This document shows positions 2,952-6,354 of a stretch of 64,000 nt of DNA, piece by piece (position 1 is the first letter of the stretch; each line of letters opens with the position of its first letter). Below the pieces are notes generated by a model that did not search any database, was not told the origin of the DNA, and saw only the letters and a list, made by a program, of their open reading frames with translations. The stretch comes from Herbiconiux sp. L3-i23 (GTDB lineage Bacteria; Actinomycetota; Actinomycetes; Actinomycetales; Microbacteriaceae). Both the position numbers and the translations under genes were made by a program. Location of the stretch: NCBI RefSeq assembly GCF_023734115.1, contig NZ_AP025737.1, forward strand, positions 558,001 to 622,000. The letters run 5' to 3'.

Positions 2952-3002
2952 ATGCCTGCACGCCCGCACGACATCGCTCAGAGAACGGCCCTCGACGCAT
3001 GA
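2952..3002 (+). CDS. Putative 16-aa leader peptide before the cohesin-like gene
   Basis: A near-perfect Shine-Dalgarno, GGAGGTGG at 2935-2942, stands 9 nt before ATG 2952. That ATG opens a 16-codon frame, MPARPHDIAQRTALDA, whose TGA (3000-3002) overlaps the ATG of the next gene at 2999 (ATGA). The larger gene has no good Shine-Dalgarno of its own. The arrangement suggests translational coupling through a leader peptide. There is no run of regulatory codons typical of an attenuator. Alternatively the true start of the large protein is elsewhere and the small frame is chance. Confidence 0.45.
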   Translation: MPARPHDIAQRTALDA

Positions 3003-4456
3003 CGCGAGGTCTCACATCACGGCGGAAGTGGGTGATCGGCGTCGCCGCCGGCTGCGCCCTCGTCGCCGCCCCCGCCTCGGTGCTCACCGTGAGCGCCGCG
3101 TCACTCAATGAAGGCACGGGTGTCGTCGCGACTCCGAGCGCCACGAAGCTCGGGATCGGCGAGAACGTCGGTGTCACGCTGCGCGCCGACGCCAGCGACG
3201 ACCTCTACGCCGCGTCGGTCGAGATCGGCTTCGACCCCACCAAGGTCGCGTTCGACCCGAACTCGGTGGCGAGCGAATTCGACGGGCTCTACAGCGCCAC
3301 CGTCGACGAGACCGGCGGCGCCGCAGTCGTCACCTTCTCGGTGACGCGGCTCGGCACCTCCGACGGGCAGGCCGGTCAGGTCGACCTCGGCAGCGTCGGG
3401 TTCACCTCGCTCGCGGCCGGAGACGCCGCGCTCACCGTCCGGTCCGTCACGCTGGTCGACAGTGCGTCGGCCGTGCAGTCGAAGCAGCCGGGCACCGCGC
3501 TCGGAGTGCAGGTGACGGCGCCAGTCCAGCCGCCGGTCGCCGAGCCGGGCACGGTCGTGAAGCTCGCGACCAGCCACAAGCTCGACGTGACCCCCGCTGG
3601 GACCGTGTCGATGGCCGTGTACGTGCGCAACAACGACACCCACGCCGTCGACATCCGCGTCACCACGCCGTACGGCGAGCAGAAGTGGACAAAGATCGAG
3701 CCGGGCAAGGCCGTCTACAAATGGATGGACACCGGGCTCGCCTCGGTGCCGGCGGGCAAGTTCACCGTCGCGGGGTACTACTGGACCGGCGTCGGCAACT
3801 ACCAGCTCTACACCGTCCCGTTCGAGGGCAGGCAGGCTCCCGTCGCCGTCCGCGCGGACGCCGTGACGGCACCCGAGGTCGTGACGCCCGAGCAGGTCGT
3901 CGGCAACGGGACTCAGGCCGCCCCGGCCCGTCCGGCGCCGGACGCCCCCGCACCGATCGTCGCCGACACGGTGACGACACCGGAGGTGGGTCTCTCGGGC
4001 AACAGCTTCGTGCGCGGAGGCACGGCGCAGATGAGCGTCGCGGGACTCCCTGCGGGGGAGACGTTCCAGGTCGCTCTCGTCGAGGGGGCGACACCCCTCG
4101 GTGCGATCTCGACGAACTCGGCGGGTCTGGGCACGACCGACCTCGTCATCCCGGTCGACGCGCCGACCGGTGAGCAGGAGATCGTCGTCTCCGGAGCGTC
4201 CGGTGCGGTCGCGACCGTCCCGGTGCTGATCGAGGAGACCGATCCGGTCGAGCCGACAGCGGCAGCGGCCACGACATCGGAGGCCGACGGCGAGCAGCTC
4301 GACACCAAGGCACTCGTGGAGGACGCCGCCGAGCCCGCCGCGCAACAGCAGTCGCTCGTCTGGCTGTGGAGCGGCGTGATCGGCGTCGCGCTCCTCGCCG
4401 GTGCCGCCCTGCTGATCGCCCGTCGCGTGGCCACCGCACGAGGAGGCAAGCGATGA
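2999..4456 (+). CDS. Membrane-anchored cell-surface protein with cohesin-like domain
   Basis: Secreted protein of 485 aa. Residues 1-34 form a signal peptide (MTRGLTSRRKW, then a hydrophobic core). Residues ~42-172 resemble a type I cohesin/CBM2-like beta-sandwich: YAASVEIGFDPTKVAF, a VTFSVTRLG strand, then GSVGFTSLAAGDAALTVRSV. Residues ~184-278 are a second beta module (YVRNNDTHAVDIRVTTPYGE) of a kind seen in actinobacterial exoproteins, followed by a Pro/Ala linker. A third Ig-like module spans ~328-412. Residues ~452-475 are a transmembrane helix with a basic tail (RRVATARGGKR). No LPXTG motif is present. The start overlaps the leader peptide, and the stop overlaps the dockerin-amidase start (ATGA, with AGGAGG before it). 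The partner gene suggests it is a cell-surface receptor for a dockerin-tagged enzyme; that role is inference. Confidence 0.75.
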   Translation: MTRGLTSRRKWVIGVAAGCALVAAPASVLTVSAASLNEGTGVVATPSATKLGIGENVGVTLRADASDDLYAASVEIGFDPTKVAFDPNSVASEFDGLYSATVDETGGAAVVTFSVTRLGTSDGQAGQVDLGSVGFTSLAAGDAALTVRSVTLVDSASAVQSKQPGTALGVQVTAPVQPPVAEPGTVVKLATSHKLDVTPAGTVSMAVYVRNNDTHAVDIRVTTPYGEQKWTKIEPGKAVYKWMDTGLASVPAGKFTVAGYYWTGVGNYQLYTVPFEGRQAPVAVRADAVTAPEVVTPEQVVGNGTQAAPARPAPDAPAPIVADTVTTPEVGLSGNSFVRGGTAQMSVAGLPAGETFQVALVEGATPLGAISTNSAGLGTTDLVIPVDAPTGEQEIVVSGASGAVATVPVLIEETDPVEPTAAAATTSEADGEQLDTKALVEDAAEPAAQQQSLVWLWSGVIGVALLAGAALLIARRVATARGGKR

Positions 4457-6354
4457 ACGCTCGGCCCTCCACCATCAGTCGTGACAACGGCGCCGCGGGC
4501 GCCAGAAGAGGAAGTGATCGGTCGATGAGACGAACGGTCTCCGGCATCACGGCCGGCATCATCGTCGCGGGAGGGTTGGTCGCCGTCGCGCCTCCTGCCT
4601 ACGCTGCCGACGAGTCGGTCTCGTATCCCGCACCCGACTATCTGAAGGGTGAACTGACGGGCGACCTCAAGATCGACACCGACGACCTGTCGCTGCTCCT
4701 CGTCAACATCGGAGCGACGAGCGCCGACCCGGTGTGGCCGCAGGTGGCCGCCGCCGACCTCGACGGCGACGGCACGATCAGCATCGTCGACGTGTCACTG
4801 CTGTCGAAGCAGTACCTGTACGACGACGGCGACTTCGAGCTGCTCGAGACGAGCATCGTCGACATCCAGAAGGCCATGACGGCGGGGTCGTTGACCTCTG
4901 CGGAGCTGACGGCGCAGTATCTGCAGCGCATCGGCGCCTACGACAGGACTGCGGGAATCGACACGCGCACCACCGCGGCGGCGGCGCAGATGTTCGAGTC
5001 GATCATCGCCTCGAACCCCGACGCCATGGCCCAGGCCGCGGCCCTCGACGCCGAACGGGCGACGACCGGGCCGCGCTCGATCCTGCACGGTGTCCCCTTC
5101 ATCGTGAAGGACAACATCAACACGGTCGGCATGGCGACGACCGCGGGATGCGCGTGCCTGTCGGACAACGTGACCGACACCGACGCCGAGACGGTCGAGC
5201 GCCTGCGCGCGGCCGGCGCGGTGCTGATCGCCAAGGCGAACCTGTCCGAGTTCGCTCAATCGACCGTCTCGTCGATCAGCAAGTTCGGGACGACGATGAA
5301 CGCGTACCGCCTCGACAAGAACTCCGGCGGCTCGAGCGGCGGAAGCGGCGCCTCGGTGTCGGCGAACTTCGCCCCCTTCTCGCTCGGCACCGACACGGGC
5401 GGCTCGGTGCGAGTTCCCGCGTCGTTCAACTCGGTGGTCGGCATCCGTCCGACGATCGGTCTCGTCAGCCGTGAGGGCGTCATCCCGCTCGATCTTTACC
5501 GCGACACGGTCGGACCGCTCGCGCGAACGGTCTCGGACGCCGCGTTGGCGCTCGACGCGCTCGCCGGCAGCGACCCGCTCGACGCGGTGACGGCCGGCGC
5601 CGACGCGGCGAAGCCCGTCTCCTACGTGCAGGGGCTCGACGCCGCCGCACTCAAGGGCAAGCGCATCGGCTACATCACGGGCTTGGTCTCGGGAACGGCC
5701 GACGCGGTGGGCTTCCGCCTCGTCGACGACGCCAAGGCAGACCTCCGTGCCGCGGGCGCCACCGTCGTCGATGTGGGAGCGTTCGGCAACGTCGCGGGCT
5801 ACGCGCTCGGCAGCCTGCCGAGCAGCCGCAGCTTCACGCACGACATGGACGAGTACCTCGACACCTACTACGAGGACGGATACACCTTCCTCGACCTCGC
5901 CGAGAAGGTGGCCGAGTCGGAGCGGGTCTCGCCGAACGACGACATGTCGAGCTGGCCGTCGAGCACCATCCGCGGGTGGGCGACCACCACCGAGGCCGAG
6001 CGGGATGCGGCGTATCCGACGTTCCTGCGCGCGCAGCAGGCGATGCGCGCCCGCGTCGACCAGCTGATGGCGCAGTACCAGCTCGACGCGCTCATCTATC
6101 CGAGCACCGGTGGTGTGGTCGAGAGCCCGGGCAGCAACAACCGGATCAGCGCCTACAGCGGCTACCCGGCCATCTCGGTGCCGATGGGCTTCGCGGACTC
6201 CGCGTTGGACGCGACGTCGCACGACGGCACCCCGATGGGGCTCGAGTTCCTGGCGGAGCCCTACTCGGAGGCGAAGCTGATCTCGTACGCGTACGCCTAC
6301 GAACAGCAGTCGCAGAACCGCCGCCCCACCGCGGTGTTCCCGGCTCTCGACTGA
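4453..6354 (+). CDS. Secreted amidase-signature hydrolase with type I dockerin module
   Basis: Protein of 633 aa with a signal peptide ending near AYA-ADE (51-53); an internal start at 4525 (MRRTVSG) would give a more ordinary signal. Residues ~66-122 are a dockerin: two EF-hand-like repeats, GELTGDLKIDTDDLSLLL and ADLDGDGTISIVDVSLL, spaced as in cellulosomal dockerins. Residues ~131-630 are an amidase-signature domain with the Ser-cisSer-Lys triad: Lys219 (VPFIVKDNIN), Ser294 or 295 (SGGSSGGS) and nucleophile Ser318 (GTDTGGSVRVP). These enzymes hydrolyse carboxylic amides; the substrate here is unknown. It is translationally coupled to the cohesin-like gene, so the pair may form an extracellular complex. 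A strong hairpin follows the stop. Confidence 0.85.
   Translation: MNARPSTISRDNGAAGARRGSDRSMRRTVSGITAGIIVAGGLVAVAPPAYAADESVSYPAPDYLKGELTGDLKIDTDDLSLLLVNIGATSADPVWPQVAAADLDGDGTISIVDVSLLSKQYLYDDGDFELLETSIVDIQKAMTAGSLTSAELTAQYLQRIGAYDRTAGIDTRTTAAAAQMFESIIASNPDAMAQAAALDAERATTGPRSILHGVPFIVKDNINTVGMATTAGCACLSDNVTDTDAETVERLRAAGAVLIAKANLSEFAQSTVSSISKFGTTMNAYRLDKNSGGSSGGSGASVSANFAPFSLGTDTGGSVRVPASFNSVVGIRPTIGLVSREGVIPLDLYRDTVGPLARTVSDAALALDALAGSDPLDAVTAGADAAKPVSYVQGLDAAALKGKRIGYITGLVSGTADAVGFRLVDDAKADLRAAGATVVDVGAFGNVAGYALGSLPSSRSFTHDMDEYLDTYYEDGYTFLDLAEKVAESERVSPNDDMSSWPSSTIRGWATTTEAERDAAYPTFLRAQQAMRARVDQLMAQYQLDALIYPSTGGVVESPGSNNRISAYSGYPAISVPMGFADSALDATSHDGTPMGLEFLAEPYSEAKLISYAYAYEQQSQNRRPTAVFPALD

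Follow-up and report, generated by a model that had tools for sequence, protein, structure and literature searches.

Known cohesin–dockerin systems and the locus in Herbiconiux

Cohesin and dockerin modules have been studied mostly in polysaccharide-degrading anaerobes, and their pairing is best known from cellulose digesters; in Ruminococcus flavefaciens the scaffoldin ScaE holds a multi-enzyme cellulosome. In the accessible portion of PMC12484212, ScaE is presented as a cohesin protein bound to the wall by sortase via an LPxTG motif, and that of PMC12997984 describes single-cohesin proteins in Clostridium perfringens, including one protein carrying both modules. Dockerin-bearing wall hydrolases of cellulosomes are mentioned in the accessible part of PMC6403190; PMC12915301 joins cohesin, dockerin and Microbacteriaceae, with the modules mentioned, in the part available, only for cellulosomes. 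Both non-cellulosomal cohesins and sortase-anchored cohesins are, then, already known. Here we analyze a stretch of 64,000 nucleotides from the actinobacterium Herbiconiux sp. L3-i23 (contig NZ_AP025737.1, positions 558,001 to 622,000; hereinafter the window, meaning the whole of this stretch), in which two overlapping genes code for a C-terminally anchored cohesin protein (gene 1) and an amidase with an N-terminal dockerin (gene 2). Computation establishes the domains of the two proteins, the cohesin fold and the conserved pairing of the modules, and we posit that the two genes very probably constitute a dedicated minimal enzyme-display module comprised of a surface cohesin receptor and a dockerin amidase.

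Both by fold and by sequence, the window cohesin family is matched best by the X82 cohesins of C. perfringens, such as that of NagJ. There is one cohesin per protein in both, but those of C. perfringens sit on glycoside hydrolases, whereas that of the window is borne by a non-enzymatic anchored protein with an amidase partner. The wall-anchored layout of ScaE is shared by the relatives of the window protein, although the window copy itself is devoid of a sorting motif, and in contrast to the multi-enzyme assembly on ScaE, the present pair comprises a single receptor and a single enzyme. The archaeon Archaeoglobus fulgidus has a further instance of the cohesin fold outside cellulosomes (2xdh, rank 12 in our fold search), and we know of no amidase partner for it. 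The receptor–amidase pair is not described in the accessible portions of PMC12997984, PMC12484212 and PMC6403190, and by titles and the starts of abstracts we recognized no description of it in searches of open-licence papers; an earlier report is possible.

The cohesin domain of the gene 1 product

The AlphaFold2 model of the window cohesin (residues 36–175) has a predicted local distance difference test score (pLDDT) of 93.8 and a predicted template modelling score (pTM) of 0.87. In a Foldseek search of the PDB with this model, ranks 1–24 among the best 50 matches are all cohesins, and the first rows of another kind are an adhesin domain at rank 25 and an integrin at rank 38. The top match is 2vo8 (E-value, i.e., expect value, 7.7e-8; template modelling score 0.76), followed by 2jh2, both of which are non-cellulosomal C. 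perfringens cohesins. The sequence profile of the cohesin family likewise recovers the C. perfringens NagJ cohesin (E ~1e-8), with the scaffoldin cohesins being matched more weakly. The domain thus belongs with the cohesins by its jelly-roll fold, and the cohesin-like domain proposed in a preliminary description of this DNA is borne out by both structure and profile. When the members of an alignment of the window domain and 68 relatives from named loci (A7; see below) are scored one by one, 62 of the 69 match the Pfam Cohesin model at E <= 0.1.

The dockerin and amidase domains of the gene 2 product

That description also quoted two calcium loops for a two-repeat type I dockerin in the gene 2 product, and both are present (residues 67–78 and 102–113; Table 1). 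Their positions 1, 3, 5 and 12 carry oxygen-bearing side chains, namely E, T, D and D in loop 1 and D at all four in loop 2; the first two of these in loop 1, Glu and Thr, thus depart from the canonical D/N of positions 1 and 3. An Asp at position 12 of both loops is universal in the dockerins studied, being conserved in 29/29 from the window's family and in 80/80 of the named set. The Dockerin_1 model matches all 29 members of the family alignment (A6) at E <= 0.1, and the best EF-hand model matches 16 of them. The start of gene 2 might alternatively lie at an internal ATG ahead of the motif RRTVSG.

The remainder of the gene 2 product is a bona fide member of the amidase signature family, as indicated by its PF01425 match and a set of active-site positions. 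Among solved structures, the catalytic domain has its closest relatives in the peptide amidases 5ac3 (E 3.3e-81) and 1m21 (E 3.5e-80), whose aligned chains cover the catalytic part of the window enzyme only. K219, S294/S295 and S318, which we take to be the expected catalytic Lys-Ser-Ser positions, are lysine and serine residues conserved when the enzyme is aligned with either structure and are identical in three rows of alignment A2. By its domain, the enzyme is predicted to hydrolyze amides.

Co-occurrence of the two modules across genomes

We searched 398 genomes of the window's family with a cohesin profile (A3) and a dockerin-amidase profile (A5). The former finds 28 genomes at E <= 6e-20, including that of the window, and five weak ones above 0.003; within the window's own genus the cohesin is present in 2 of 9 genomes. 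The latter matches 202 genomes, with its dockerin part covered in 29 (E <= 9e-40); among the remaining matches listed (to ~2e-6), all start at profile position 41 or beyond, in or near the amidase. All 28 genomes with a strong cohesin fall within the 29 with a dockerin-amidase, as compared to 0 of the 173 with an amidase match lacking the dockerin. The 29th genome (G103) has its amidase frame open from base 1 of the contig, such that the upstream side lies beyond it, and in another (G200) the cohesin and amidase genes stand at the ends of two contigs. The gene pair, which the preliminary description had suggested seeking in other Microbacteriaceae, is hence found in 28 of 398 family genomes.

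Generic Pfam models, used as a control on the same genomes at E <= 1e-4, give a comparable picture: the Cohesin model has 19 matches, each in a different genome and each at the pair, and the Dockerin_1 model has 24 matches spread over 22 genomes, with 21 of these matches at the pair. In the genome of the window itself there is a single Cohesin and a single Dockerin_1 match at E <= 1, both sub-threshold. This is at odds with a cellulosome, in which a scaffoldin would carry multiple cohesins and there would be multiple enzymes with dockerins (glycoside hydrolases were not part of the survey), and, together with the co-occurrence in the 398 genomes, supports the earlier proposal of a one-receptor, one-enzyme system.

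Beyond the family, a one-genome-per-species collection scanned with the start of the dockerin-amidase yielded 112 relatives, and the counts given here as the named set come from 80 of these; the family and named sets partly share genomes. Judging from the titles of the records, the named loci include Microbacteriaceae genera, Cellulomonas, Cellulosimicrobium, Oerskovia, Sanguibacter, Isoptericola, Georgenia, Demequina and Nocardioides. Of the 80 loci, 74 have a cohesin; in each of the remaining six, the frame of the amidase extends past the start of the locus, which is the end of the contig. The recurrence of both modules across so many genera indicates that they are paired far more than expected by chance. 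Two loci (L117, L122) show just the tail of the cohesin. Separately, the cohesin frame of the Demequina locus L140 (4115–4507) has just 130 residues and ends early, perhaps owing to a frameshift in the record, and the contig of L171, although labelled Stenotrophomonas maltophilia, codes for an amidase grouping with those of Microbacterium in the tree, suggesting probable contamination.

Gene overlap, order and fusion

The adjacent, overlapping layout claimed for the window is confirmed in that both frames are open over the proposed coordinates, with the start codon of gene 2 lying over the stop codon of gene 1. This arrangement prevails among the relatives. Among the 26 complete two-gene cases of the family set, a start codon in the frame of the amidase gives a 4-base overlap with the cohesin stop in 23 and a 1-base overlap in two, with the order being reversed in one; among the 68 of the named set, the corresponding figures are 64, two and two. 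The former count leaves out L106, the split L083/L084 and L109, and the latter the six loci without a cohesin, the fusions L172, L164 and L180, and the short frames L117, L122 and L140. The loci with the cohesin gene downstream of the amidase gene are L108, L170 and L189.

In a few instances the modules lie on a single chain, with the order cohesin-dockerin-amidase in L106 and L172 and dockerin-amidase-cohesin in L164 and L180, both from Nocardioides. L106, L172 and the Nocardioides forms are separated in the amidase tree, in which some node supports are modest, suggesting that the joining of cohesin, dockerin and amidase may have occurred more than once. These single chains are also the basis for a different reading, under which the two modules interact chiefly in cis or in a head-to-tail manner, the enzyme forming polymers at the surface or in the medium, with the anchored two-gene arrangement being but one version. 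However, they are a minority, with 1 of the 28 family cases and 3 of the 74 named loci with a cohesin, L106 could reflect a lost stop, and in most forms the two proteins are separate and the cohesin protein bears a sorting motif. Hence, we regard a predominantly cis or polymerizing system as quite improbable. As for the architecture of the fusions, L106 (from G380) is one frame with a cohesin, an LSATG motif, a membrane stretch, a second signal-like stretch and the dockerin-amidase, which may be a genuine fusion or result from the loss of a stop, and the order in L164 and L180, which is the opposite of that in the Microbacterium fusion L172, is followed by further sequence after the cohesin.

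Anchoring of the cohesin protein

An LxxTG motif occurs close to the C-terminus of the cohesin protein in 24 of the 26 complete two-gene cases of the family set and 66 of the 68 of the named set. It is absent in the window protein and that of a congener (L015), both of which retain a hydrophobic stretch with a basic tail, and also in L170 and L189. Accordingly, the window protein does not qualify as a sortase substrate: it possesses the stretch and the tail but not the motif, and the only sorting-domain match among the NCBIfam models at its C-terminus scores 16.1 bits against a cut-off of 29. In the genome of the window, three sortase matches exceed the cut-off. Thus, the earlier remark that no sortase motif is present holds for the window, but does not extend to its relatives.

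Evidence on the proposed contact between cohesin and dockerin

Several observations weigh against an enzyme-display module of this kind. In the window, both modules score below the Pfam cut-offs: the cohesin obtains 18.5 bits with the full protein and 22.8 with the domain alone against PF00963 (cut-off 24.1), and the dockerin 19.2 bits with the protein and 21.8 in the genome search against PF00404 (cut-off 22.9), with both being missed in the control search at E <= 1e-4. The profile check proposed in the preliminary description therefore fails for the window proteins themselves but succeeds more often for their relatives, PF00963 and PF00404 exceeding their cut-offs in 21 and 23, respectively, of the 28 pair-bearing family genomes. 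The dockerin profile (A6) run against PDB sequences retrieves calmodulins at the top, with no dockerin among the best 60 matches; this search shows paired calcium loops rather than dockerin identity. The Fisher p-value of 3.7e-42 for the co-occurrence ignores shared ancestry. Across 66 loci, cohesin and dockerin distances show a correlation of 0.61, which mostly reflects shared history, and the partial correlation given the amidase distance is 0.19 (permutation p 0.001), a weak signal in favor of the pairing. Finally, we folded the natural cohesin-linker-dockerin chain of L172 from Microbacterium sp. 2FI (242 residues) with an alignment (A10) of 61 cohesin and six dockerin rows, one of the latter being the dockerin of L171; this alignment was picked among random row subsets such that no residue fell in the wrong module and was chosen before folding. 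The resulting model has a pTM of 0.62, with a well-modelled cohesin and dockerin blocks of pLDDT 41–75, and displays no interface; it is as compatible with docking as with its absence.

Some of these observations would be accommodated if the dockerin-like stretch were a calcium-stabilized folding aid of the secreted amidase and the cohesin-like surface protein merely co-transcribed with it: the sub-threshold Pfam scores in the window, the EF-hand matches in up to 16 of 29 dockerins along with the calmodulins in the PDB sequence search, and the L172 model with its poor dockerin are all compatible with it. Such a folding aid, however, would not account for the strong cohesins being confined to genomes with a dockerin-amidase, for the two modules remaining together under reordering or gene fusion, or for true cohesins being the best structural matches, and we consider it improbable.

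The counterevidence further includes dockerin matches away from the pair, of which G307, G362 and G400 have one apiece, and two extra sub-threshold cohesin matches (E ~0.007–0.008) in the pair genomes G168 and G029, from a search of the 28 pair genomes at E <= 0.01. These 3 of 24 dockerins would fit a scenario in which the target of the cohesin is a different one, such as a surface or a substrate, and the dockerin has another partner, but with no other cohesin at E <= 1e-4 in the 398 genomes and one match per model in the genome of the window we deem this highly improbable. The off-pair dockerins themselves are located at G362:C13:154463-154606, G400:C5:796500-796646 and G307:C97:13020-13187; two lie in frames of ~1250 residues in pair-bearing genomes and one in a frame of 86 residues.

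Features of the locus and its surroundings

Table 1. Features of the gene pair in window coordinates; the signal-peptide-like regions and the anchor were assigned by eye from the sequence
Feature	Coordinates	Strand	Basis and remarks
Gene 1 (P0001), 485 residues	2999..4456	+	Secreted, C-terminally anchored cohesin protein; open frame and homologues
Signal-peptide-like region, gene 1 residues 1-35	2999..3103	+	Sequence, by eye
Cohesin domain, residues 36-175	3104..3523	+	AlphaFold2; PDB fold matches; Pfam PF00963 at residues 49-148, below cut-off
Accessory region 1, residues 178-284	3530..3850	+	Alignment; absent from G008 and G034 proteins
Accessory region 2, residues 325-412	3971..4234	+	Alignment; common to the window and congener G008 protein
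C-terminal hydrophobic anchor, residues 452-474, then basic tail	4352..4420	+	Sequence; no LxxTG ahead
Gene 2 (P0002), 633 residues	4453..6354	+	Secreted dockerin-amidase; open frame, Pfam and homologues
ATGA overlap	4453..4456	+	Gene 2 start codon over gene 1 stop
Signal-peptide-like region, gene 2 residues 1-51	4453..4605	+	Sequence, by eye; ends PPAYA
Type I dockerin, residues 67-120	4651..4812	+	Pfam PF00404 within residues 69-120, below cut-off
Calcium loop 1 ELTGDLKIDTDD, residues 67-78	4651..4686	+	Positions 3, 5, 12 invariant in 29/29
Calcium loop 2 DLDGDGTISIVD, residues 102-113	4756..4791	+	Positions 1, 12 invariant in 29/29 and 80/80
Amidase-signature catalytic domain, residues 128-626	4834..6330	+	PF01425, 311.6 bits (cut-off 27)

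A Pfam scan of the two accessory regions of the gene 1 product recovered no match. The first of these resembles stretches of secreted-looking proteins from the same genome (L013) and from relatives (L005, L006, L007, L009 and L014), some of which look, by eye, like lyases or nucleases. Upstream of the pair, the window codes for a trehalose-phosphatase (1915–2748; PF02358), which nothing ties to the cohesin and dockerin modules. The neighboring genes are not conserved; besides the pair itself, present in 30/30 loci, the biggest common cluster occurs in 9/30 and hence offers no pathway context for the substrate of the amidase.

Implications of a proposed one-to-one surface pair

Under the enzyme-display reading that we favor, the gene 1 product would serve as a cohesin receptor at the cell surface, held in the Herbiconiux strain by a membrane helix and probably linked to the cell wall by sortase in nearly all relatives. 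The gene 2 amidase would be secreted separately and its N-terminal dockerin would plug into the gene 1 cohesin, in a contact that may depend on calcium, with the overlap of the genes potentially keeping the two products in step. With its dockerin plugged into a surface cohesin the enzyme would therefore work at the cell surface, where it might cleave extracellular amides or peptide amides such that the products stay near the cell. A bolder version would have widespread, cellulosome-independent two-part display modules in actinobacteria, in which a surface cohesin specifically captures one amidase and which, where fused in some lineages, would give enzymes able to polymerize head to tail on the surface; this we consider rather unlikely.

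If the proposed module is real, a conserved one-to-one pair in actinobacteria would mean that the cohesin–dockerin contact also serves as a simple surface hold for one enzyme. The many natural pairs, some of them fused, would offer material for specificity studies and display tools, and a set of secreted amidases would gain a testable role.

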